Shown in pieces: positions 12,432 through 25,551 of a stretch of 25,838 nt of DNA (within the stretch, counting starts at the first letter, position 1; each line of letters starts with the position of its first letter). The DNA is taken from IMG/VR virus record IMGVR_UViG_3300032157_000042, positions 1-25,838 of that record; one strand, given 5' to 3'. A program made the position numbers and the translations under genes. The stretch comes from a virus. Under the pieces are notes generated by a model. The model ran no database searches. It had not been told where the DNA came from and worked only from the letters and a program-made list of their open reading frames with translations.

Positions 12432-13292
12432 TCAGGCAACCAGGGGGATCATGAACGGGGCGATCAGTGCCTCGACGTCGGGATCCATCCGCGACACCCG
12501 GATAGCGCCCCACTCGGCGTTGCCGAGCACGCCCTGAGGGGAGTCCTTGCGGCGGTACAGGCGCGACGCGAGCAGCGTGTTGGCCTGGGTGATGTCGTCA
12601 GGGACGGCCGGCCAGCCCCACCGTGCGGTGATCCGGACCTTGCCGGTGTACGGGATCCAGGCGCCGGGGGCGCGGATCCGATTCCAGGGCTGGCCGTAGC
12701 TGTCCGCGTTGTCCGGGCCGGCCTCCTGCGTGGCCACCGCGGTCCACGTGCCGCCGATGCCGGTCGCGGTCTCCACGATCAGACCAGCGGTGGTGGCGAA
12801 GTCGTCGACGCGCAGCACGGCGTCGGACCCGTCGCACGACACCCGGCGACCAGGTCGGAAGACGCGCGCCGTGGCTGCCAGGTCGGCGTAGAAGCGGCGA
12901 CCGCAGCGCCGGTCGATCCACCGCGCCCCGGCGATGATCGCAGCCGAGATCAGATCGTCGCGGTCGTCGTCGGTGGTCTTGCCCAGCGCGGCCTTGACGG
13001 TGGTGATGTCGGTGTAGGCCGGCGGGGCCGGGTCGGCGACCGTGAACGCGAAGGTCACCAGATCGGTGACGGCGCCGGTCACCATCCACGCACCGGACCA
13101 GCCGCCGACCTGGTCGGGGATGACGGTGTCCGCGACATACCGGCCGGTGCTCGGATTGGTCAGCGAGGGCGTCGAGGTGGTGCCGTCGGGTGCGGTCACC
13201 GTCAGGACGACGGTTGCGGCCGTGAGCTCGTTGTCGCGGTCGTAGACCAGGTGCTCCAGGTTGACGCCGTCACCGAGGTCGTACGTGGTCAC
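12432..13292 (-). CDS. Head-tail connector (gp6-like) with N-terminal Ig-like domain
   Basis: A 286-residue protein starting GTG. Residues ~95-285 begin with YTDITTVKAALGKTTDDDRD and WIDRRCGRRFY, the helical opening of HK97 gp6-like head-tail connectors, then a beta domain and a C-terminal helix pair (TLLASRLYRRKDSPQG). These rings sit under the portal. The first ~90 residues (VNLEHLVYDRDNEL... LTNPSTGRYVADTV) look like an Ig-like beta sandwich added at the N-terminus, perhaps exposed at the neck. The connector part is well supported; the Ig assignment is by strand pattern. Confidence 0.76.
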   Translation of the reverse strand: MTTYDLGDGVNLEHLVYDRDNELTAATVVLTVTAPDGTTSTPSLTNPSTGRYVADTVIPDQVGGWSGAWMVTGAVTDLVTFAFTVADPAPPAYTDITTVKAALGKTTDDDRDDLISAAIIAGARWIDRRCGRRFYADLAATARVFRPGRRVSCDGSDAVLRVDDFATTAGLIVETATGIGGTWTAVATQEAGPDNADSYGQPWNRIRAPGAWIPYTGKVRITARWGWPAVPDDITQANTLLASRLYRRKDSPQGVLGNAEWGAIRVSRMDPDVEALIAPFMIPLVA

Positions 13293-13310: not shown

Positions 13311-14552
13311 CTAGGTGGTCAGGGGCTGATCCCGGGAGACCGTGACGGTCACTCGGTTGCGCGTGACCGTGGTGACGACCCGCTCGCGGGTGACTGTGAC
13401 CAGCGGCCGCGTCGGGGACGACGTCAGGCCGCCCGGCGTGACGACCGTGGCGGTGGCGGTGAGCGCGCCAACTCCGGCGACTGTGCCAGCGGCGGCGCGG
13501 GTGGCGGTTGCGCTGAGGGTCAGGTCGGCGGTGCCCGCCAGCAATGCGGTTCCCGGCCGGGTAGCGGCGGGTGCGGCGGCGAGTGAGCCCGCGCCTGCCA
13601 GGGCGGCGTCGGCGACCCGGACCGGCTCTCCGGTCACGGCCAGGGCGGCTGTCCCGGCGAGCGCAGCGGTCGTGCTGCGTGCTACGTCCGAAGCGGCCGT
13701 CAGGGCGCCCGTGCCGGGCGCGGTGGCGGAGCCGTCTCTGGCGGCCGCCGCCGTCGCGGCGAGGCTGCCAGTGCCAGCAGCGGTAGCGGTGCCGGATCGC
13801 TCGGCCGTCGCCGTGGGGGTCAGGCTGCCGGTGCCGTCGAGCGACGCCGTGCCGTCCTGGGTGGCCGGGCCGCCACCGCCGCCATTGTGGGTGGCGACGA
13901 GTACCGGGTGGCCGTAGCCGAGGCCAGGCACGCTCTCCGTCGAGACCGCGGTGCCCGTCAGGGCCGTCTGGTTCCCGCCGCCGCCGGTCCAGTCGACAAC
14001 GTCCTGGGTCGTCGACTCCTGATCCAGGACCCACAGAGACGTCGCGCCGAGGGAGGTCCATGAAGTGAGCGAGAACGGCAGCTCCTCGACCTGCGCATCG
14101 GTCAGGACCTTGTTAGCGAAAAACCCCAGCGCTGCGATGTCGCCGGTGAAACGAACGGATCCGGAAGCATCCCTGCCGATGTAAACCGGATTTCCGACAC
14201 TCCAGTCGGCCATTGAGGAACTGGCATTCTCATGCGTCCATGTATCCGTTTCATACGAATACTTGTGCATGCGAGGGGTCTGTGACCCCGACGCCTTCAT
14301 CGCCGCTAGGAGTACATACCCCTCGCCAGGGGCCGCCCCCACGGTCGGCCCCGCGCGATCCGCGAAGCCGTTCACCACCCAGAGCCGGTCGAGATAGAAA
14401 TAGGCGCTGAAGTTCGGGAGACCGACTGCATCGAATAGCCAACTGTCCGAGGCGGTGACTCGCAATACGACAGCAAAGCCGCCGTACCCTGTCGTCGCCG
14501 ATGCCCCCGGTGCGCACCGGACATTCGAACTGCCGTCGAAGTACCGCGCCAC
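13311..14552 (-). CDS. LamG-like protein with seven 20-residue repeats
   Basis: A 413-residue protein starting GTG. Residues ~1-165 form a LamG/concanavalin-like sandwich (RYFDGSS..., VYIGRDASGSVRFTGDIAAL), followed by a glycine linker. Residues 231-370 are seven consecutive repeats of exactly 20 residues with the consensus R-x-G-x-A-x-x-A-G-T-G-x-L-x-x-x-A. The last ~30 residues alternate Val/Thr/Arg (VTVTRERVV). Codons in the LamG part are less G+C-rich than in neighbouring genes, suggesting separate acquisition. It may be a head fibre or other surface decoration that binds sugar. No close family is recognised beyond LamG. Confidence 0.75.
   Translation of the reverse strand: MARYFDGSSNVRCAPGASATTGYGGFAVVLRVTASDSWLFDAVGLPNFSAYFYLDRLWVVNGFADRAGPTVGAAPGEGYVLLAAMKASGSQTPRMHKYSYETDTWTHENASSSMADWSVGNPVYIGRDASGSVRFTGDIAALGFFANKVLTDAQVEELPFSLTSWTSLGATSLWVLDQESTTQDVVDWTGGGGNQTALTGTAVSTESVPGLGYGHPVLVATHNGGGGGPATQDGTASLDGTGSLTPTATAERSGTATAAGTGSLAATAAAARDGSATAPGTGALTAASDVARSTTAALAGTAALAVTGEPVRVADAALAGAGSLAAAPAATRPGTALLAGTADLTLSATATRAAAGTVAGVGALTATATVVTPGGLTSSPTRPLVTVTRERVVTTVTRNRVTVTVSRDQPLTT
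13443..13862 (-). repeat. Seven 60-bp coding repeats
   Basis: These bases encode residues 231-370 of the LamG protein: seven units of exactly 60 bp each. The protein period is perfect, while the DNA copies have diverged, so the repeat is old or under selection at protein level rather than a recent slippage product. A related unit appears in the 53-residue gene at 15466-15627. Confidence 0.82.
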
Positions 14553-14568
14553 AGTCAGCCACCCCCAG

Positions 14569-15090
14569 CTAGGTGGTGGTGTATGTGATCGCTACTCCGA
14601 CGACTTCTGCGTCGCCGGTCGCCGTGTCCGACCCGTCCGCCGTCGCCCGGGCCAGGCGCACCACCACGAAGTCGCCTGCCGCGACTGAGTCCGCGTTCGT
14701 CAGGGTGACCGAGGTGTCCAGCATGTAACCAGCTGTCCCTGGCGCCGTTCCTGAGGCGGTGTTCGCCGACCCGAAGACCTTCGCATCCACATCAGTGCTG
14801 TCACCGGTCGTCACAGCAGCGATCCGGACGTCCCAGACGACACCGCCCGAAGTCGCCGACGCGGCCTTCCACTGCACGACCGCGACCGGCGCTGAGGCGT
14901 AGTCGGCGGGCATCCGGAACTGCCACGTACACCACTCTTCCGAGCTGGTGTCGAAGGCGAGTTGCAAGAAGTAGACGCCGGGCGCTGTGCCTGAGGACTT
15001 CACCCTTTGCATCGCCGGGGCGAGGTTGGATGCGGTGCCGTCCGGCAGGATGGCCGCTCCGGGTGTCAGCAGGATGCTCCCGGTGGCCAT
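14569..15090 (-). CDS. Beta-rich virion-like protein (jelly-roll type)
   Basis: A 173-residue protein starting ATG one base after the previous stop. It has an N-terminal segment LLTPGAAILPDGT, a strand-rich middle (WQFRMPADYASAPVAVVQW) and a C-terminal VAAGDFVVVRLARA. This layout recurs in uncharacterised structural proteins of many phages and resembles single jelly-roll decoration or fibre proteins. Its place within a run of coupled genes near the head module suggests a virion part. Function is inferred from layout only. Confidence 0.6.
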   Translation of the reverse strand: MATGSILLTPGAAILPDGTASNLAPAMQRVKSSGTAPGVYFLQLAFDTSSEEWCTWQFRMPADYASAPVAVVQWKAASATSGGVVWDVRIAAVTTGDSTDVDAKVFGSANTASGTAPGTAGYMLDTSVTLTNADSVAAGDFVVVRLARATADGSDTATGDAEVVGVAITYTTT

Positions 15091-15091
15091 G

Positions 15092-15469
15092 TCAGGCCGC
15101 CAGCGCGCCCTGCGTCGCCGTGACGGTGACGTTCAGGGTGTCGCCGTTCGTCATCGGCTTCGACGCCGCCAGAGCCGCCGACGCGATGAAGTTTCCGGAC
15201 GAGGATGCGTCCCACACCGACACGTGGCTGATCGTCTCCGACCCGGCCGACCAGGTCGACCAGGTCACCGCCGACGCCGCCGACGACCCGGCGGACGGGG
15301 CCGCGAACGTCAGCGCCTTCCTCGTCGTCTCCGCCGACGCGTTCGACGTGCCGGCGGACCCGGGGTCGCCGGTGTGGAGCTTGAGGTACGGGTTGAACCC
15401 GGTGTAGCTGGTGTTCCGCAGCACGTTCAAGATCGCGTGTGCGTGGGCGGTGGACTGGCCGACCGTCAT
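15092..15469 (-). CDS. Small beta-rich fibre-like protein
   Basis: A 125-residue protein with the pattern YLKLHTGDPGSAGTSN, then ETTRKALTF, then SHVSVWDAS...FIASAAL. This occurs in short phage tail-fibre-like proteins. ATG has GAGGAGGACCG upstream and overlaps the preceding stop (ATGA). It is rich in Ser/Thr (a possible O-glycan acceptor, speculative). Together with the next gene it likely forms a surface structure on the virion. Confidence 0.62.
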   Translation of the reverse strand: MTVGQSTAHAHAILNVLRNTSYTGFNPYLKLHTGDPGSAGTSNASAETTRKALTFAAPSAGSSAASAVTWSTWSAGSETISHVSVWDASSSGNFIASAALAASKPMTNGDTLNVTVTATQGALAA

Positions 15470-15627
15470 CGGTCCTCCTCGTCGTCAGTGGGATCGCCGG
15501 GGATGACCTCGGCCTCGGCGGTCAGGGTGAGAACTCCCTCGGCAGCAGCCGCAGCCCCGCGCGTCACGGCGGCGTCAGCGTCGAGGTTCATCACGCCGCC
15601 GAGATGGTGGTCGTTCGGACTGGTCAT
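15466..15627 (-). CDS. 53-residue acidic protein sharing the 20-residue repeat motif
   Basis: A short frame coupled at both ends by ATGA overlaps (with the epimerase stop at 15624 and the next start at 15469). Residues ~20-43 (VTRGAAAAAEGVLTLTAEAE) match the repeat unit of the LamG protein at 13311-14552, with the same R-G, central G and L-T-x-T-A spacing; the tail is acidic (DDEEDR). Because both ends fit the coupling pattern it is probably a real gene. It could be a short partner of the repeat protein. No function known. Confidence 0.62.
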   Translation of the reverse strand: MTSPNDHHLGGVMNLDADAAVTRGAAAAAEGVLTLTAEAEVIPGDPTDDEEDR

Positions 15628-16499
15628 GCCGCACACACCCTCAGGCAGCGGGCCACGCCGTCGGCGAGCGTCACCGTCGGCTTGTAGTACTGGTGGAACC
15701 GCGCCGGGTCGCCGACCCGGTACGCGACACCCGCCGGCTTATCGGTGAGGTACTGGAACGTCGGCTGGTGGCCGACCTGGTCGCAGGCGATGTGAGCCAG
15801 CTCGGCCATCGACCAGCCGACACCAGTGCACAGGTTGACCGGCTCCTCGGTGCCCGACTCGGCGACGGCGAGCATGCCGGCCACGACGTCGTCGATGTGG
15901 ATCCAGTCCCGCACCTGGTTGCCGTCGCCCCAGATGACGAACGGGTCCTCCCGGCGGCGCGCCCGCTCGACGAGCGCCCGGAACGGGAAGAGCTCGGCCT
16001 GGTCCTCGCCGTAGCCGGAGAACGGCCGGACCACGGTGACCGGCAGCCCAGCCTTGCGCGCGGCCCGGGCCAGGCGCTCGCCGGTGAGCTTCGTCCAGCC
16101 GTAGTCACTGTCCGGCTCCATGGCATCCGCGAGGTCGATGCGGCGTTCCCGGAGGACCTCGTGAATCAGGGTGCCGTCCTGGTAGGCGATCGGGTAGGCG
16201 GCGCTCGACGACAGGTAGAGCACCCGGCCCTGACCGGTTCGGACCGCCCAGTCGAACATCGCCGCGTCGAGCTGCAGATTGCGGGCGAAGTGCTGCGGCT
16301 CGCCGTCGATCGCGGCCCGGTGCGGCGACGACGCTGCGGCGTGGACCACCAGGTCGTATCGAAGGTCCTGGCGGAACTGGTCGAGCGCGTCGCGTCCCTC
16401 GACGATGTCCCAGTAGTTCACCTCGTACCCGCGGCGCACGAGTTCGGCCACCGTGTGCCGCCCGACGAAACCGGCCGAGCCGGTCACCAGCGCTCTCAC
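15624..16499 (-). CDS. NAD(P)-dependent sugar epimerase/dehydratase (extended SDR)
   Basis: A 291-residue protein with the nucleotide-binding motif TGSAGFVG (residues 6-13), an SSSAAYP strand and the catalytic YxxxK (Y133, K137 in YGWTK). C-terminal residues (WGDGNQVRDWIHIDDVV) are those of nucleotide-sugar epimerases/dehydratases such as GalE and RmlB relatives. It would change the sugar of an NDP-sugar in the cytoplasm. The exact product cannot be read. The start GTG at 16499 overlaps the methyltransferase stop (GTGA); a GTG at 16505 is an alternative adding two residues. It belongs with the two methyltransferases and two glycosyltransferases upstream. Confidence 0.88.
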   Translation of the reverse strand: MRALVTGSAGFVGRHTVAELVRRGYEVNYWDIVEGRDALDQFRQDLRYDLVVHAAASSPHRAAIDGEPQHFARNLQLDAAMFDWAVRTGQGRVLYLSSSAAYPIAYQDGTLIHEVLRERRIDLADAMEPDSDYGWTKLTGERLARAARKAGLPVTVVRPFSGYGEDQAELFPFRALVERARRREDPFVIWGDGNQVRDWIHIDDVVAGMLAVAESGTEEPVNLCTGVGWSMAELAHIACDQVGHQPTFQYLTDKPAGVAYRVGDPARFHQYYKPTVTLADGVARCLRVCAA

Positions 16500-17047
16500 G
16501 TGCACGCCCAGATACCGAAGCAGTAGTCGCCCTGCGCGGGTCGCAGGTCCAGCGCCAGGAAGACGCTCACGGTGAACCCAGCCTCAGCGAGCATGCCGTC
16601 CACCTCCGCCCGGTCCCACGCCCAGTAGTGCTCCGGGTTGGAGTCCTCCCACGCCTCGATCGGCGTGGACAACAGCAGCCGCGACGTCTTCGCGCGGATT
16701 TTCTTCAGCACCAGGTCCGGGTCGTCGAGGTGCTCGAGGGTCTCGGCGCAGACGAACAGGTCCACGTCCGGGATCTGCTCGATCGTGGCCTCGACCGGCC
16801 CGGTGATCGGCCAGCCGGGGGCGAAGTCGCCGAAGATGCGGGTCTGCAGCGGGATCGCGCCGAGCAGGGCGCCGTCACCGCAGGACAGGTCCGCCCCGGT
16901 CTCGACGTCCTTGAGGATCGCCTTGGCGAGCATCGCGGAGAACGAGACCCGCATCCGGTGGTCGATCCAGCCCGCATGCTGGTGCGGCACCCGGTAGATG
17001 TCCGCCAGCGCCTGCGGCGAGTGCGCCGGCCGCAGCCGGGCCCTCAC
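16496..17047 (-). CDS. SAM-dependent methyltransferase 2
   Basis: A 183-residue class I methyltransferase. Motif I is DLSCGDG (residues 53-59), and the acidic motif is CAETLEHLDDP (100-110), followed by the substrate-side region LLLSTPIEAWEDSNPEH. The N-terminal start GTG overlaps the stop of methyltransferase 1. It is related to methyltransferase 1 by the shared E-x-L-E-H-L-x-D-P motif. In this setting a sugar O-methyltransferase is the likely role, but the acceptor (sugar, protein, other) is not shown. It is shorter than most of the family. Confidence 0.8.
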   Translation of the reverse strand: MRARLRPAHSPQALADIYRVPHQHAGWIDHRMRVSFSAMLAKAILKDVETGADLSCGDGALLGAIPLQTRIFGDFAPGWPITGPVEATIEQIPDVDLFVCAETLEHLDDPDLVLKKIRAKTSRLLLSTPIEAWEDSNPEHYWAWDRAEVDGMLAEAGFTVSVFLALDLRPAQGDYCFGIWACT

Positions 17048-17628
17048 TTCGCCGCCGCCATGAGCACCTGGAACGGCCCGACGGCCTCGTGCCGGACGAT
17101 CCGCCACCCGGCCGCGCGGAACATGGCCGCGTAGCCGTCGAAGTCCCACGCCCACGTGTGGAACTCGTAGTGGGCGCCCGGCCGCTCGGTGTGCGGCGAC
17201 GACGCCACCACCGCCCGGCAGTTGCCGCGGATCGTCGCCACGAGGGCGTGCGGGTCGACCAGGTGCTCGAGCATCTCCGTGGCTACGGCGATCTGGCCCC
17301 ACTCGACCGGGTCGGACAGGACGTCGGCCAGCCGGACGTCCACGCCGCGGTCCTTGGCGGCCTGCGCGGCCGCCGGGGCGAGGTCGTAGCCCCACGCCTT
17401 CAGCCGCGGCCCGAGCAGCGACAGCATCCCGCCATCACCGGCGCCGAGGTCCACCGCGGTGGACAGGCCGTAGGAGTAGGCGGCCTGCGCCACCATCAGC
17501 GACGACTTGACCAGCCGGGGCCGGTGGTGGGGGTCTTCCAGGTGCGCGGCGTTGTCCCGGCCCTCGTACCACTGCGCGGTGGTGTACTCCGGGATCGTCC
17601 CGGCCTCGAACAGTCGCCACTCACCCAC
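17044..17628 (-). CDS. SAM-dependent methyltransferase 1
   Basis: A 194-residue class I methyltransferase. Motif I is VDLGAGDGG (about 59-67), then YDLAPAA and the acidic motif EMLEHLVDP (118-126). The later strand AVVASSPHTER and FHTWAWDFDGY resemble the C-terminal half of Methyltransf_11/23-type enzymes that modify sugars or small molecules. The GTG start lies inside the upstream gene's end. It is co-oriented and coupled with methyltransferase 2, and the pair may methylate different positions of one glycan, or act together. Confidence 0.82.
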   Translation of the reverse strand: MGEWRLFEAGTIPEYTTAQWYEGRDNAAHLEDPHHRPRLVKSSLMVAQAAYSYGLSTAVDLGAGDGGMLSLLGPRLKAWGYDLAPAAAQAAKDRGVDVRLADVLSDPVEWGQIAVATEMLEHLVDPHALVATIRGNCRAVVASSPHTERPGAHYEFHTWAWDFDGYAAMFRAAGWRIVRHEAVGPFQVLMAAAK

Positions 17629-17800
17629 GGGAACGCTCGCCGTCGTCGGCCCGCGGGTAGGTCCGGAAGATCATTTCCCAGCCGGTGCCGACGCCCGGAG
17701 TCTCGGTGATCTGGACCTGGACGGGCTCGCTCCACTCGCCGTTCATCTGCTTGATCAGCTCTGGGCTGACCAGCACGGTCACGCTCGGATTCTCGATCAT
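17621..17800 (-). CDS. 59-residue protein of unknown function
   Basis: It is coupled to the glycosyltransferase upstream (ATGA) and overlaps the methyltransferase start. The sequence (MIENPSVTVLVSPELIKQMN...) shows a beta strand, a short helix and a second pair of strands with an Arg/Asp tail. No family is recognised. Its constant position between sugar enzymes suggests a small virion or accessory protein, but nothing in the sequence gives a role. Confidence 0.55.
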   Translation of the reverse strand: MIENPSVTVLVSPELIKQMNGEWSEPVQVQITETPGVGTGWEMIFRTYPRADDGERSRG

Positions 17801-18480
17801 CGCAGCGCCCGCACCTTCGCCACGTCCTCGGCGAACCGCGTCCGGACGTACTCGGCGAACGCCTCCTCGTCGGCCCGGTAGACCGCACGGTCGTTGACCC
17901 GGACGTAGCCGGCGTCCCACTGCGCCTTGCCGGCCAGCGGGTGCCGGTGCTCGACGATGACGTCCGGCAGGTAGCGGATGCATTCGGCGGCCTGACCGAG
18001 GGACAGCCAGAAGTTGTCGACGTACATGTGCCGCAGCTGCGGCGGGGCCATGTACCCGAGCGCCTGGACGATGTCTGAGGTCATCGCACACTGGGTGGGC
18101 AGCCGCTCACCCTGGAGCAGGTCGTTGCCGTAGGCGATGCCGGTGCCCAGATCCTTGAGCGCGTCGAGGTACGCCTGATCCCAGCCAAGGGTGCGCGGGC
18201 AGTGGTCGTCGCCCATGAACCCGATGGCGAACGGAGGTTCGTCGAGCAGGGTCTGGCCGACGGCCGCGCTGTTCAGCGCCTCAACCATCGTGGCGTTGCC
18301 GCCGACGTGGACGTGGACCCCATCGTTGCTGATGAGCCGGCCGTAGTCGCTGGGATCGTCCTCGTCGACAGCGAACACCAGCGCCGTGTCGGCGGTGCAG
18401 GTGTCCGCGAACGCCCGCGCCAGGGCCGCCGCCGCCTCGGGCCGGCCGCGCGACGGGACGATGACGACAAGATCGGTCAC
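17797..18480 (-). CDS. GT-A-fold glycosyltransferase 2
   Basis: A 227-residue protein. It opens with LVVIVPSRGRP, the first strand and loop of GT2-like enzymes. AVDEDDPSDY (about 37-46) and GFMGDDHCPRT (about 87-97) supply acidic residues of the nucleotide-sugar/metal site. HMYVDNFWLSLG and VIVEHRHPLAGKAQWD follow as the acceptor side. It would transfer a sugar from an activated donor. The GTG start overlaps the stop of the small gene upstream. Such genes are often found near phage structural genes and are known in some mycobacteriophages to glycosylate virion proteins. The target is not identified here. Confidence 0.82.
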   Translation of the reverse strand: MTDLVVIVPSRGRPEAAAALARAFADTCTADTALVFAVDEDDPSDYGRLISNDGVHVHVGGNATMVEALNSAAVGQTLLDEPPFAIGFMGDDHCPRTLGWDQAYLDALKDLGTGIAYGNDLLQGERLPTQCAMTSDIVQALGYMAPPQLRHMYVDNFWLSLGQAAECIRYLPDVIVEHRHPLAGKAQWDAGYVRVNDRAVYRADEEAFAEYVRTRFAEDVAKVRALR

Positions 18481-18671
18481 GTGCCGGACCGCCTGCCGCG
18501 GGTCGCTCGCTCCTCGGCCACCGCCGCCGCGCCGGTCGCCTCCTTGGTGAACATGTCCGGGTTCGCCTTCACCAGCGAGTCGGAGGTGTCGTAGACATCC
18601 CCGGCGCCGATCCACACCGACTGGCCACCGTGGCCGACGAACTGGTTCACCGTCGCGTAGACCTTGCTCAT
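18477..18671 (-). CDS. 64-residue small protein between the two glycosyltransferases
   Basis: Both ends fit the 4-bp overlap pattern. The sequence (VYATVNQFVGHGGQSVWIG, GDVYDTSDSLVKANPDMF) resembles small proteins found between capsid and connector genes in actinophages, probably a minor structural protein. The C-terminal part is basic and Ala-rich. Its position among sugar enzymes, rather than next to capsid, suggests that the enzymes were inserted on both sides of an original head gene. Confidence 0.6.
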   Translation of the reverse strand: MSKVYATVNQFVGHGGQSVWIGAGDVYDTSDSLVKANPDMFTKEATGAAAVAEERATRGRRSGT

Positions 18672-19420
18672 GCCGCACTCACCTCGGGATGCATCGGGGA
18701 CAGATAGCCCCGTTCGGCCAGGTAGCCGTCCACGGTCAGCACGCGCTGCTTGACGTGCCCGAGCTGGACGGCGGTGTTCACGTACACGGGGATGCCGAGC
18801 AGGCCGGCGCGCCAGCAGAAGCCGATGTCCTCGCTGACCGGGCGCCCGTCGTGCTCGAGCTCCTGGAACCAGGGGTAGGCGTCGTTGAAGCCGGACTTCC
18901 CCGGCCGCGACGGGTGCTGGAAGTCGCGCATCTTCTCGAACACGCTCCGGTGCACCAGCAGGGCGGCGGCGCCGGTCGCGGCGATCTGCATCATCGCGTC
19001 GGGCGGCCACTCGTGGTAGCGGACCACCTGCGGGTTAGCCTCGTCGCCGACGAAGCCGTACAGGGTGGGCTGCACCTGGCCCTCGCCGTCGAAGCCGAAG
19101 CACAGTCCGCCGACGATCGGGGCCTTCTCCGGGTCGGCGTGCTCCAGGAGCCGCTCGAGCAGATCCGGCATGAAGATCATGTCGGTGTCGACCATGAGGA
19201 GCCAGTCGGCCGTGTGCGCCAGGAACTTGCGCACCATCTCGTTGCGCGGACCGGCCAGATTGCAGCCGGCGCGGATCGGCAGCATGCCGCCGCCGTCGAT
19301 CATCCGCTTCGGGCCGGCGAAGTCGTACATCTGCAGGTAGAGCAGCGACTCCATGAAGTCGGCCTTGACGTCGGCCGGCGAGCAGTAGCCGATCACGACC
19401 TTCTCGGATTCGGGTCTCAT
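18668..19420 (-). CDS. GT-A-fold glycosyltransferase 1
   Basis: A 250-residue protein. Residues 53-80 (CNLAGPRNEMVRKF, then WLLMVDTDMIF) contain the DxD metal/donor motif (D78-T-D80) after an N/R-rich loop typical of GT-A enzymes. SEDIGFCWRAG (about 196-206) holds the catalytic-loop E/D residues, and GHVKQ follows (His222). ATG is preceded by AGGAGAAGG. It is the first gene after the hairpin at 19440-19475, so it opens the sugar cassette. It should transfer a sugar to a protein or to a growing glycan; the donor and acceptor are unknown. Confidence 0.85.
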   Translation of the reverse strand: MRPESEKVVIGYCSPADVKADFMESLLYLQMYDFAGPKRMIDGGGMLPIRAGCNLAGPRNEMVRKFLAHTADWLLMVDTDMIFMPDLLERLLEHADPEKAPIVGGLCFGFDGEGQVQPTLYGFVGDEANPQVVRYHEWPPDAMMQIAATGAAALLVHRSVFEKMRDFQHPSRPGKSGFNDAYPWFQELEHDGRPVSEDIGFCWRAGLLGIPVYVNTAVQLGHVKQRVLTVDGYLAERGYLSPMHPEVSAA

Positions 19421-19517: not shown

Positions 19518-20390
19518 CTAGTTCGTCAGCCGGAGCTGCCCGCTACGCCGCTCCTGGCGGCGCGCACGCTGCTCGGCCACCACGAGGTCGGGATAGATGT
19601 CGAGCACCCAGTTGACGAGGTCCTCGGGGCGCTGACCGCACGGCTGCGGCTTCACCCAGAGTTCGAGGTTCTCCGGCCGGTTGTCCGACCTGCGGCCGTT
19701 CTTGTGGTGCACGTTCTCGAACGGGAACAGCTCTCGGCCGAGCAGCTGTTCCATGACGAGGCGGTGCTCCAAGACCTTGCGGCCGTCGATCGAGAGTTGC
19801 ATGTAGCCGTTGCGGTCGAGGTGCCCCTCACCGGCCGCCCGACGTCGGGCGGCGGCCTCGCCCGGCTCGCCGTGGCTACGTACTCGACTCAGGTGACGGT
19901 GACAGAGTCCGTTGGCCCGACTTGGCCGGTCGCACCCCGGAACGGAGCACTCCGGCTTCTTGAGCTCACCGGACTCGTATGCGCGCCACAGATGCATCTG
20001 ACACAGGCCGTGGCCGTAGATCAGGCGCTCGCAGTCCTCCCGCGAGCAGATCTCGCCGCCGAAGTCTCCGAGCCGCTTGTGCTTGTGGTAGCAGGGGCGG
20101 CAGTAGCCGCGAGCCCCGTTCGGGTACCGGTCACAGCCCGGCTCGATGCACGCCGCGTCCGTGGTACGCGTTCTGTCCGACGAGGGCTTGCGGCATTCTT
20201 CGCTGCAGTACTGCCTACGGCGACCGACCTTGGCCGGCGGAATCTCCTTGCCGCATCGAACGCACTCCCGATCGGGAGCAGTTACCTTGCGGCGGTCTTG
20301 GCGGTAGTGAGGTTGACATAGACCCTTGCTGTGAACTGGCTTTTCGCACTCGTCAACCGAGCACGTGGACAGTGGGGGAAGATCTTCCAT
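19518..20390 (-). CDS. HNH homing-type endonuclease with multiple zinc fingers
   Basis: A 290-residue protein. The first ~165 residues hold four treble-clef-like units of the form C-x4-C...G-x-C-x2-H/C (near residues 10-28, 81-100, 112-132, 147-167) and a C-x2-C...C-x3-C unit at about 42-66. Near the C-terminus HRLVMEQLLGRELFPFENV followed by HHKNGRRSDNRPENLEL is an HNH_3 core with both histidines and the Asn. It is predicted to cut DNA as a free-standing homing endonuclease. It lies 34 bp after the capsid stop and is less G+C-rich than its neighbours. Only a weak GTGGGG precedes the ATG. Confidence 0.85.
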   Translation of the reverse strand: MEDLPPLSTCSVDECEKPVHSKGLCQPHYRQDRRKVTAPDRECVRCGKEIPPAKVGRRRQYCSEECRKPSSDRTRTTDAACIEPGCDRYPNGARGYCRPCYHKHKRLGDFGGEICSREDCERLIYGHGLCQMHLWRAYESGELKKPECSVPGCDRPSRANGLCHRHLSRVRSHGEPGEAAARRRAAGEGHLDRNGYMQLSIDGRKVLEHRLVMEQLLGRELFPFENVHHKNGRRSDNRPENLELWVKPQPCGQRPEDLVNWVLDIYPDLVVAEQRARRQERRSGQLRLTN

Positions 20391-20423: not shown

Positions 20424-21857
20424 TTAGGCGAGTGCAGTGGCTGCTGCCACCTGATTCAACTGTAGGAGCCTGAAAGCAGCCGGATCGACTACGTCTGCAC
20501 CCACGCGCCAGAAGGCATACCAGCCAGCCTGGCCAGTCGGGCGGTTGTTGCCCGTCGAGCGGATCAGCGGGTCGTAGAGCACCGACATGCCGACCCGGTC
20601 GACGATGTAGTACTCGGCGAAGTTGCCGGCCAGCAGGATGTTCGCCCCGGTCGACACGACGCCGGTCATCGTGGAGCACTCGTACTGGTTCTGGCCGAGC
20701 AGCTGGTTGGGCACGCCCATACCGAGGTTCGCCCAGAAGCTGCCGCCGCCGGAGGTGTCGAACCGCCGGATCAGGCTGAAGATCTTCTTGTTGCCGATCC
20801 AGGACGCCTGCGACGCGTCGCGCGGGCGCAGCGCGTCGGAGGTGTTGTAGACGTCACCGACGGCGAACGCGTTCGTCGCCGCCGCGGTCACGATCGACGC
20901 GGTCACCGCGGCGACGGCCGCGACGACACCACGCGGGATGGTGGCGCCGGTGTTCGCCGTGGCGAACGCGGCCTCCTCCAGGCGCACCTTGGCGTCGGCG
21001 AGCAGCCGGGCCAGCTCCGACGCGAAGCCCGAGTCGGCGAGGACCTCGTAGGAACCGAACACCCAGGCGTCGGCCTTCTTCGGCGTGATGACCGGCTGCC
21101 CGAAGGTCGGGGTGGCGTCCCCGGTCTCCACGCCCTCACCGGTCCATGCCGCGCTGACGCCAGCGGAGGTGACGCCGTTCCAGGTGTCCGTGGCGATGGT
21201 CTTGACGGTGGAGATGGAGCGCAGCGGCCCCGCGATGCCCGAGTTGGTGAGGATCACGGTCGGGTCGAGCGTGAACGGCACCAGGTAGCCGCCGTTCGCG
21301 TCGGTCAGGCTCAGCGCGGCACGCATCGACTCACCAACCCGGTAGCCGCGCGACTTGACGTAGTCGCGGAACTCCTCGTGGTAGATCGGCGAGCCGGTGA
21401 GCAGCATGTGCCGGGCGATCAGCGGTGCGTGGACGTTGTCCAGCTCGAGCAGCTCGGTGAGCCGCTCCTTCGCCGCGTCGTTGACGTGCCGCGGAGCCCG
21501 CTCCACCGCGGCGTGCGCGCGGGAGATGACGTCCTCGACGTCCATCGAACCGCGCCCGATCAGCGACCGGTGCAGCTCGTCGGTGTTGTCGTAGGGGTCG
21601 ACGCGGGTCATCACCTCCGGGCCGCGACGGTCACTCTCGACCTGGGCCGGCCTCACCGACGCGCGCAGCACCTCGGCGACCTGCTCCTCCCGCCCGAGCG
21701 CCTTGTCGTAGGCCTCCTTGCGGATCTTCCACTCGTCGAGCAGAGCCTCCGACCGCGACACCTCGTCGTCGGTCGGCTCCTCCAGCTCGTTGAGGTTGGT
21801 GATCTCGGCCCGGAGCGCTTCGAGCTCCGCGCCGATGACCTCGGACTGCTTCTTCAT
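20424..21857 (-). CDS. Major capsid protein, HK97 fold
   Basis: A 477-residue protein. Residues 1-~80 are a charged coiled coil, like the delta/scaffold domain of HK97 gp5, removed by the protease upstream. The mature part begins around residue 150-180. It includes ANGGYLVPFTLDP, the P-domain helix (EEAAFATANTGATIPRGVV), GVPNQLLGQNQYE, and the C-terminal strand NRPTGQAGWYAFWRVGADVV. Subunits form the icosahedral shell. ATGA overlap with protease stop. The last ~25 codons are less G+C-rich, continuing into the HNH gene, which hints that exchange affected the 3' end. A capsid that the downstream sugar enzymes could modify. Confidence 0.92.
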   Translation of the reverse strand: MKKQSEVIGAELEALRAEITNLNELEEPTDDEVSRSEALLDEWKIRKEAYDKALGREEQVAEVLRASVRPAQVESDRRGPEVMTRVDPYDNTDELHRSLIGRGSMDVEDVISRAHAAVERAPRHVNDAAKERLTELLELDNVHAPLIARHMLLTGSPIYHEEFRDYVKSRGYRVGESMRAALSLTDANGGYLVPFTLDPTVILTNSGIAGPLRSISTVKTIATDTWNGVTSAGVSAAWTGEGVETGDATPTFGQPVITPKKADAWVFGSYEVLADSGFASELARLLADAKVRLEEAAFATANTGATIPRGVVAAVAAVTASIVTAAATNAFAVGDVYNTSDALRPRDASQASWIGNKKIFSLIRRFDTSGGGSFWANLGMGVPNQLLGQNQYECSTMTGVVSTGANILLAGNFAEYYIVDRVGMSVLYDPLIRSTGNNRPTGQAGWYAFWRVGADVVDPAAFRLLQLNQVAAATALA

Positions 21858-24078: not shown

Positions 24079-25551
24079 TCATCGCCACGCCACCATCGGC
24101 GCGGTCGGTAGTGGCCTGTGAACCCGTGGCGTGCAGTGCCCGAACAGAGCCAGCGACCCGGCCGCGATCGGCGCCACATCCGAGGTCAGGTCGTGCCGCT
24201 CCCACGCCCACGAGTTGCCGATCTTGCGTTTCACCGCGCCCGCGACCGCGTCCGTCATCGCCTGCTGGCCGAGGTGATGCACGGTCCGGCCGCCCGGGTC
24301 GGGGCCGGCGACGCCGTCGTAGAGCAACTGGCAGCCGGTCACCACGTCGGCCACGCCCGCCCGGTGCACGACCAGGCCGGCCGCCTCCGCCTCGTCAGCG
24401 ACCGCCTTGTCGTCGATCACCATCACCGACGGAACGTGCGTGTCGAGCTGTCGGAGCCGGCCGACGATCCACGCGGTGCCCGGCCGGTAGTCGTCGCCGT
24501 CGAGTTCGTTGCCGGTCAGCTCGATGTGCCGGCCGCCGTCCTCACGCCTGCCCGCGGCGGCGATCGCCGAATAGGAGCGGTCCGGCGGCACGTACACGCC
24601 GATGGCCGGACGGCCGGCGATCTGGCTGGCCGGGTCGAGCATGGCCGTCCAGAACCGTTCGGCGATCACCCGGAATCCGAGCTGGGACGGCTTCGGCGGC
24701 CAGATGCCGAGAATCTCGCGGGCGAAGCCCTTGTTGGTCAGCACGTCACGCATGACCTGCACGTTTTCCTCGCGGACCCGACCGGACCGCATCGACGGCA
24801 GCGCCGCGAGCCAGGCGGCCTTGTCGTCGAGATCCATGTCGTCGATCTCGTCGAGGTTGCCGGCGAGCCCGTAGTCGAACCAGGCCAGCCGCTCCGCGAC
24901 GCCCGCCTCGCCGCGATCGCGGACCGCCATCAGGATCTGCCCGGAGATCGCGTCCAGTGGCGGCGACGACGTGTACCAGACCTGCGCGTTGTCGACCGCG
25001 AGCATCGTCGGCATCGACGCTTCCATCTGCTCGTCGGTGAGCGCGTACGCCTCATCGAGCACGACCAGGTCGCCGGTGAAGCCGCGGCCCGCGTTCTTCG
25101 TCCGGGCCAGGCATTCCAGGACAGCGCCGTTGACCATCTCCAGGCCCTCTTTGCCGTTGGAGTTGATCACCTTCTTGACGCGGCGCCGCAGGTCGTCGGA
25201 GCCGTCGAACAGCCGGATCAGCCGCTTGAAGTGCTTCATCGACGTCTTCAGCTCGTGCGCGGTGTGCACGATCTGCTTCTCGCCGAACAGCACCAGCCCA
25301 GCCAGCTCCCGCGCCTCGAGGACGGAGCCCTTGCCCTGCTGACGGGCCACGACCAGGCCGACCTCGAACGCCGACCAGCGGCCGTCCGGTCGCTCACCCA
25401 TCGCGTTGCGGAGCACGAACTGCTGCCACGGGTCGAGGATCAGGCCGGCCGACGCCGCCAAGTCGATGACCTCGTCGCCGGCGCTCGTGCTGAACCGCGG
25501 CACGTGGACCACCCGCGGCCGTTCGACAGCGGCCAGGTCGATGACGGTCAT
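24079..25551 (-). CDS. terL: Terminase large subunit
   Basis: A 490-residue ATPase/nuclease. Walker A-like ARQQGKGS (69-76) and Walker B LVVLDEA (162-168) are present, with the TSSPP coupling motif near 194. The nuclease domain contains PDRS (D324), VIDDKAV and MTDAVAGA as candidate metal residues. In related terminases an Asp often precedes PDRS by four; here that place is Tyr320 (IGVYVPPDRS), so the first metal ligand may be D324 instead. It packages DNA through the portal. ATGA overlap with the small gene upstream. Confidence 0.93.
   Translation of the reverse strand: MTVIDLAAVERPRVVHVPRFSTSAGDEVIDLAASAGLILDPWQQFVLRNAMGERPDGRWSAFEVGLVVARQQGKGSVLEARELAGLVLFGEKQIVHTAHELKTSMKHFKRLIRLFDGSDDLRRRVKKVINSNGKEGLEMVNGAVLECLARTKNAGRGFTGDLVVLDEAYALTDEQMEASMPTMLAVDNAQVWYTSSPPLDAISGQILMAVRDRGEAGVAERLAWFDYGLAGNLDEIDDMDLDDKAAWLAALPSMRSGRVREENVQVMRDVLTNKGFAREILGIWPPKPSQLGFRVIAERFWTAMLDPASQIAGRPAIGVYVPPDRSYSAIAAAGRREDGGRHIELTGNELDGDDYRPGTAWIVGRLRQLDTHVPSVMVIDDKAVADEAEAAGLVVHRAGVADVVTGCQLLYDGVAGPDPGGRTVHHLGQQAMTDAVAGAVKRKIGNSWAWERHDLTSDVAPIAAGSLALFGHCTPRVHRPLPTAPMVAWR

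Follow-up and report, generated by a model that had tools for sequence, protein, structure and literature searches.

The 25.8-kb viral contig IMGVR_UViG_3300032157_000042 (IMG/VR; 70% G+C), from a virus of soil actinobacteria, was analysed over its full length of 25,838 nucleotides, referred to here as the window. Its head and tail genes lie on the minus strand. Within the head module, at 15624-19420 on that strand, is a cassette of seven open reading frames (ORFs) that in transcription order are GT1, sm1, GT2, sm2, MT1, MT2 and SDR, i.e., two glycosyltransferases, two S-adenosylmethionine (SAM) methyltransferases and one extended short-chain dehydrogenase/reductase, with two small ORFs among them (Table 1). 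TerL, portal, protease, major capsid protein (MCP) and HNH genes precede GT1. SDR is followed by sm3, a gp80-like head/fibre protein, two Ser/Thr/Ala-rich proteins, the head-tail adaptor and the tail genes. A first-pass annotation made from the letters alone had placed a sugar-modification cassette on the late strand here, and all seven ORFs are indeed present. No DNA similarity of the contig to cultured phages was found.

The genes are tightly coupled. The run of 4-bp overlaps described in the first-pass annotation holds at most junctions (GT1/sm1, sm1/GT2, GT2/sm2 and MT1/MT2), while the sm2/MT1 overlap is 8 bp and the MT2/SDR overlap is 10 bp with the listed GTG start of SDR, or 4 bp if SDR begins at 16499. 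SDR relatives begin (MRALVTG) at the position equivalent to 16499, which is probably the start. Coupling extends beyond 15624, as SDR overlaps sm3 by 4 bp (counted from an ATG at 15627, probably the start of sm3) and sm3 overlaps the gp80-like gene by 4 bp. With the listed starts, every junction between GT1 and the gp80-like gene is an overlap of 4 to 13 bp. The ratios of nonsynonymous to synonymous substitution rates (dN/dS) against the closest relative, locus L010, are 0.18 for GT1, 0.26 for GT2, 0.31 and 0.37 for the methyltransferases and 0.32 for SDR; the head genes sm1 and MCP gave 0.76 and 0.13. The arrangement of the genes is not due to chance, and the five enzymes look real and under selection.

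Table 1. Genes of the cassette and its surroundings in the window (HMM, hidden Markov model).
Feature	Position	Strand	Evidence
TerL	24079-25551	minus	
MCP, HK97-type major capsid protein	20424-21857	minus	PF05065 E 3e-37
HNH endonuclease, MCP-GT1 insertion	19518-20390	minus	PF13392, phrog_20891
GT1, GT-A glycosyltransferase	18668-19420	minus	phrog_34859, AF2 model, Foldseek
sm1, small head-module protein, 64 aa	18477-18671	minus	iterated HMM matches
GT2, second GT-A glycosyltransferase	17797-18480	minus	phrog_14945 E 5e-46
sm2, 59-aa ORF	17621-17800	minus	translation; no family matches
MT1, class I SAM methyltransferase	17044-17628	minus	Methyltransf_23; family alignment
MT2, class I SAM methyltransferase	16496-17047	minus	Methyltransf_23 below Pfam cut-off; family alignment
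SDR, extended short-chain dehydrogenase/reductase	15624-16499 (ORF may begin 16505)	minus	PF01370 (Epimerase) E 3e-39
sm3, 53-aa Ala-rich ORF	15466-15627	minus	overlaps with SDR and gp80-like gene
gp80-like virion protein	15092-15469	minus	PF23140 E 2e-26; phrog_240 head protein
Head-tail adaptor, downstream boundary of the head module	12432-13292	minus	phrog_442 E 7e-20

Both glycosyltransferases have GT-A folds and intact donor/metal-site residues, as the first-pass annotation had read them, and the structure prediction it had proposed returned GT-A folds for both AF2 models in Foldseek. GT1 matches the glycosyltransferase profile phrog_34859 (E 3e-16) and falls just under the Pfam cut-off for Glycos_transf_2. 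Residues D78xD80, E197-D198 and H222 are invariant in its aligned relatives. The nearest folds to the GT1 model (pLDDT 89.6) include the collagen galactosyltransferase COLGALT1, A197 of Sulfolobus turreted icosahedral virus (STIV) and ppGalNAc-T2, and several of them are enzymes acting on proteins. GT2 has no Pfam match. Its residues D39, D42, D91-D92 (GDD), D155, H178 and H180 (HxH) are invariant in aligned relatives, and its model (pLDDT 95.5) is nearest to the fucosyltransferase WrtF, the chondroitin polymerase K4CP, TarP/TarS and RmlT, enzymes whose acceptors are sugars or polymers. A DNA methyltransferase label (phrog_2675) was considered for GT2 and rejected, because the match spans only the N-terminal glycosyltransferase part of a glycosyltransferase-methyltransferase fusion.

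Both proposed methyltransferases were confirmed by family matches and by a glycine-rich motif I that is kept in their relatives (VDLGxGDGG in MT1, ADLSCGDG in MT2). MT1 matches Methyltransf_23 with an E-value of 5e-8; no solved relative of the MT2 family was found by sequence. The similarities are generic (Methyltransf_23 and UbiG-like), and sugar O-methylation is a predicted role. In SDR the GxxGxxG NAD(P) motif, S99/S100, Y135 and K139 are invariant across 37 relatives. Its best solved relatives by PDB profile are GDP-mannose 3,5-epimerase (GME), MoeE5 and GDP-fucose synthase (E 8e-34 to 1e-28), all of which align over its full length. The catalytic Cys and Lys of GME serve C3/C5 epimerisation. 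In SDR an invariant A102 stands opposite the catalytic Cys145 of GME and a non-Lys residue opposite Lys217, and we rejected GDP-mannose 3,5-epimerase activity on these replacements. The motif SSSAAYP, similar in relatives, lacks the Asp-Glu pair that follows the catalytic Ser/Thr in 4,6-dehydratases, and a dTDP-glucose-type 4,6-dehydratase was rejected as well. Of the earlier "epimerase/dehydratase" assignment, the extended SDR with intact motifs stands and the dehydratase type does not. Since the residues of both of these enzyme types are absent, a 4-epimerase or 4-ketoreductase type of activity is likelier.

The gene set recurs widely. The loci sampled are the best-ranked relatives listed, on contigs that may be partial, and the thresholds of the family HMMs shape the counts; the GT1 and GT2 families are larger than the loci sampled, and the counts hold among the matches listed. 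SDR has relatives in at least 80 loci in viral contigs (42-75% identical), and viral contigs contain over 500 relatives of the GT1 family. The conserved gene order that the first-pass annotation had called for was found: where SDR-anchored loci had enough DNA, GT2 lies upstream in 52/59, a methyltransferase in 48/59 and GT1 in 29/59, and all 214 scored neighbours are on one strand. The commonest order is MCP-GT1-GT2-MT2-SDR, with zero to two methyltransferases between GT2 and SDR, in the order MT1-MT2 or MT2-MT1. Anchored on GT2 instead, SDR is downstream in 40/55 loci. Of the GT2 loci, 13 are in named bacterial genomes (Spongiactinospora, Nonomuraea, Actinomadura, Micromonospora and Streptomyces), and in 11 of these SDR is no more than about 2.5 kb downstream of GT2. 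The relatives include prophages, e.g., one with the cassette in Spongiactinospora rosea (locus L088).

GT1 is tied to the capsid gene. Among loci chosen on GT1 alone, the MCP is just upstream in 53/54. Conversely, MCP-anchored loci whose MCP is 62% or more identical to that of the window have GT1 wherever there is enough downstream DNA; L281, with an MCP only 40% identical, is the one MCP-anchored locus that lacks GT1 despite sufficient DNA. GT1 is present in five of 299 genomes of one actinobacterial order, in each case directly after the MCP (5/5), so it is not a chromosomal envelope enzyme there. Some GT1 loci in bacterial genomes are minimal (MCP-GT1-adaptor). Pairwise distances also co-vary: across 45 loci with all four genes the correlation (rho) is 0.74 for GT1-MCP (0.68-0.81 in subsamples), compared to 0.53 for MCP-protease and 0.47 for MCP-portal, values possibly lowered by the portal and protease models having been built from one sequence each. 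Larger sets gave 0.71 for MCP-GT1, 0.64 for GT2-SDR, 0.65 for GT2-MT2 and 0.64 for MT2-SDR, against 0.07 for MCP-GT2. The high correlations within groups and the low MCP-GT2 value separate two co-varying units, MCP with GT1 and GT2 with MT2 and SDR. MT1 tracks neither clearly.

The small genes help to place the cassette. An iterated HMM of sm1 found matches in 128 loci, in most cases as the immediate neighbour of GT1 on either side, and one relative has a weak match to the connector family phrog_9538. The cultured Gordonia phage Agueybana, whose MCP is 38% identical to that of the window, has no cassette; there an sm1-type gene follows the MCP and the adaptor comes directly next. From this comparison we read the cassette as an insertion in the MCP-adaptor interval and sm1 as a resident head gene, not an enzyme. 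We rejected sm1 as a member of the sugar cassette, as an sm1-type gene also follows the MCP in Gordonia phages without the cassette. No family matches to sm2 were found, nor relatives in the loci examined, and sm3 occurs in almost no loci; both were rejected as conserved cassette parts. The two small proteins earlier counted as part of the cassette are therefore present as ORFs, one being a head gene and the other without relatives.

The second unit is found in differing head layouts. About 11 contigs lack GT1 and have GT2-MT2-SDR downstream of a portal of another type (phrog_776) and a head-morphogenesis gene (phrog_2468); in further contigs the unit follows another portal/virion gene and additional glycosyltransferases. 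By this comparison of layouts, the unit has entered head modules on more than one occasion.

Several other features were observed at these loci. The HNH endonuclease gene between MCP and GT1 has zinc-finger-like repeats and recurs directly downstream of the MCP in other loci (L100, L102, L111, L112, L114, L118, L125, L154, L224, L226, L249, L257 and L258). It is probably a homing gene outside the cassette, and its recurrence suggests a repeated homing-insertion site downstream of the MCP. The sm3 product resembles a single unit of the imperfect Ala/Thr/Gly-rich repeats (about 20 aa each) that end a 413-aa protein at 13311-14552. Seven SDR relatives (L038, L040, L047, L048, L051, L062 and L078) are in a replication module without GT2, where their neighbours are a PF03214-type glycosyltransferase, a C5-cytosine DNA methylase and an unassigned protein roughly 450 aa long; the L047 contig also carries a thymidylate-synthase-family gene. 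These loci are a candidate DNA glycosylation system, in which the sugar may be meant for DNA. At the left end of the window, on the opposite strand (137-880, plus), is a fragment of an FtsK/SpoIIIE or EccC-like ATPase, which may belong to the phage, to an integrative element or to flanking host DNA.

We propose that the cassette encodes a late-operon pathway that glycosylates the virion and was built from two evolutionary units, a reading to which we assign a probability of roughly two in three. In the first unit GT1, fixed beside the MCP, would add the first sugar to a head protein, most likely the MCP. In the second, SDR would turn a host nucleotide sugar into the donor for GT2, GT2 would extend the sugar chain, and MT1 and MT2 would methylate, and thereby cap, it. 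This scheme of priming and extension draws on the resemblance of GT1 to protein glycosyltransferases and of GT2 to sugar and polymer glycosyltransferases, and on the active site of SDR. The modification may benefit the particle. The link to the virion, as had been suggested earlier, has strong comparative support from the linkage and co-variation of GT1 with the MCP and from the presence of GT2-methyltransferase-SDR sets in more than one head design; the acceptor, the sugar and the antigenic or receptor change suggested earlier are predictions.

Several observations weigh against this proposal. The fold matches of GT1 and GT2 are weak, with TM-scores between about 0.5 and 0.65, and the enzymes that GT2 resembles include those for wall teichoic acid and O-antigen. 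The distance correlations are descriptive and are affected by linkage as well as by function. The last 28 residues of 99 MCPs have a mean Ser+Thr fraction of 0.10, which is not rich, and is still compatible with a single site. As the glycan site in mycobacteriophages is the protein C-terminus, that exact acceptor pattern is unsupported here. The GT1-linked MCPs do have conserved Ser/Thr columns, e.g., S231, which are leads only because the comparison included just two MCPs without GT1. Finally, profile comparison revealed no similarity of Che8 gp109 and gp110 to either glycosyltransferase (hhalign probabilities 0.2-3.6%), and function cannot be transferred from them by homology.

Phage virion glycosylation has already been demonstrated in mycobacteriophages, and the kind of system is therefore known. 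Glycosylation of virions by phage glycosyltransferases is established for Che8, Corndog and Myrna (PMC12363180), and a second account locates the glycans to the C-terminal ends of the capsid and tail tube proteins (PMC12619734). Like these actinophages, the window encodes tandem glycosyltransferases. The Che8 genes (gp108-110) are at the right end of the genome, whereas GT1 is beside the MCP, and the available excerpts of the mycobacteriophage accounts report no SDR, which the present cassette has. Cluster O mycobacteriophages carry three tandem glycosyltransferases beside an O-methyltransferase (PMC11600133), and Rhodococcus phages with a glycosyltransferase and a methyltransferase have been interpreted likewise (PMC13313380). 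In the archaeal virus STIV, A197 is an essential glycosyltransferase proposed to act on the major capsid protein B345, which is glycosylated (PMC10551542). Like GT1, A197 is a small single-domain viral GT-A enzyme, and it is the second-best fold match to GT1 (TM 0.55/0.70, 14% identity); it belongs to another virus realm with another capsid fold, and its acceptor is itself only proposed.

Cultured phages hold parts of the cassette. GT2 has homologues in 69 records, the best at 40-44% identity, as in phiAsp2 (pas33-pas35), Streptomyces Annadreamy-type and Arthrobacter Mimi-type phages. These homologues are beside other glycosyltransferases, without the GT1, SDR, MT1 or MT2 families and outside the MCP-connector interval; in large Streptomyces and Arthrobacter phages the GT2 homologue precedes a cytidylyltransferase-like protein. 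The Actinoplanes phage phiAsp2 carries GT2 as a fusion with a Methyltransf_24 domain, which is independent evidence of GT2 working with a methyltransferase. The fusion, pas34 (L083:8001-9791), is labelled a DNA methyltransferase, and the phrog_2675 label appears misleading for its N-terminal part. In cultured phages we found no SDR homologue above about 30% identity, no MT1 homologue and just four weak matches to GT1, at about 27% identity or less. What differs here is unrelated glycosyltransferase families, the fixed place beside the MCP, the SDR and an evolution in two units; by these searches cultured phages match neither the families of GT1 and SDR nor the coupling to the MCP nor the construction from two units. 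The first-pass annotation had seen a combination beyond the single glycosyltransferase often encountered, but sets of glycosyltransferase and methyltransferase have precedents.

The acceptor on the virion could instead be a fibre or decoration protein, i.e., the gp80-like protein or the Ser/Thr/Ala-rich proteins at 13311-15627. The gp80-like protein matches a virion-associated protein (PDB 8jou), is 29% Ser+Thr and is coupled to SDR via the sm3 overlaps, and its gene directly follows GT1 in several GT1-only loci (L198, L202, L203, L205 and L209); the composition of the MCP tails points the same way. Yet gp80-like genes are in only 24 loci, and the 173-aa protein, like sm3, is absent from nearly all, while the MCP is nearly always present. 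We consider such an acceptor unlikely and favour the MCP.

It is also quite unlikely that the enzymes alter the host envelope (wall teichoic acid or a glycolipid), blocking superinfection or changing the receptor, and merely share the late operon. GT2 does match the surface-polymer enzymes TarP, TarS, RmlT and WrtF in fold, cassette relatives do occur as prophages, and serotype-converting glycosyltransferases are common in temperate phages (a point made in PMC12619734). Against this, GT1 keeps its place beside the MCP, with which it shows stronger co-variation than the other head genes, and the cassette genes are inside the late head operon, overlap-coupled to a head protein gene, rather than in a separate lysogenic unit. 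No flippase-like gene accompanies the cassette in the window.

Glycosylation or other hypermodification of phage DNA is very improbable: hypermodification of DNA by phage glycosyltransferases is known (Pyle et al., 2024, as cited in PMC12619734) and some SDR relatives are in replication modules with a C5-cytosine methylase and another glycosyltransferase, but those loci lack GT1, GT2 and the methyltransferases, and a thymidylate-synthase-type homologue (PF00303) exceeded the cut-off in only 1/20 contigs, possibly partial, that one being a replication-module case. A search for TET/JBP (PF12851) returned nothing, as did its control, and is uninformative.

If the cassette glycosylates the virion, GT1 could, tentatively, be a dedicated and co-evolving modifier of one clade of HK97 capsids, with GT2-methyltransferase-SDR sets swapped to give different methylated surface sugars; capsid glycosylation might then be built into head formation in a large lineage of uncultured actinophages. 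Particle glycosylation has so far been proven in only a few mycobacteriophages. The GT1 family is unrelated to the mycobacteriophage glycosyltransferases, and almost all of its examined copies, those in prophages of Spongiactinospora and others included, are locked to the capsid gene, so that how common glycosylated heads are among actinophages becomes directly testable. Dividing the cassette into one unit bound to the capsid gene and one swappable sugar unit further yields a prediction of which gene would set the acceptor and which would set the sugar.

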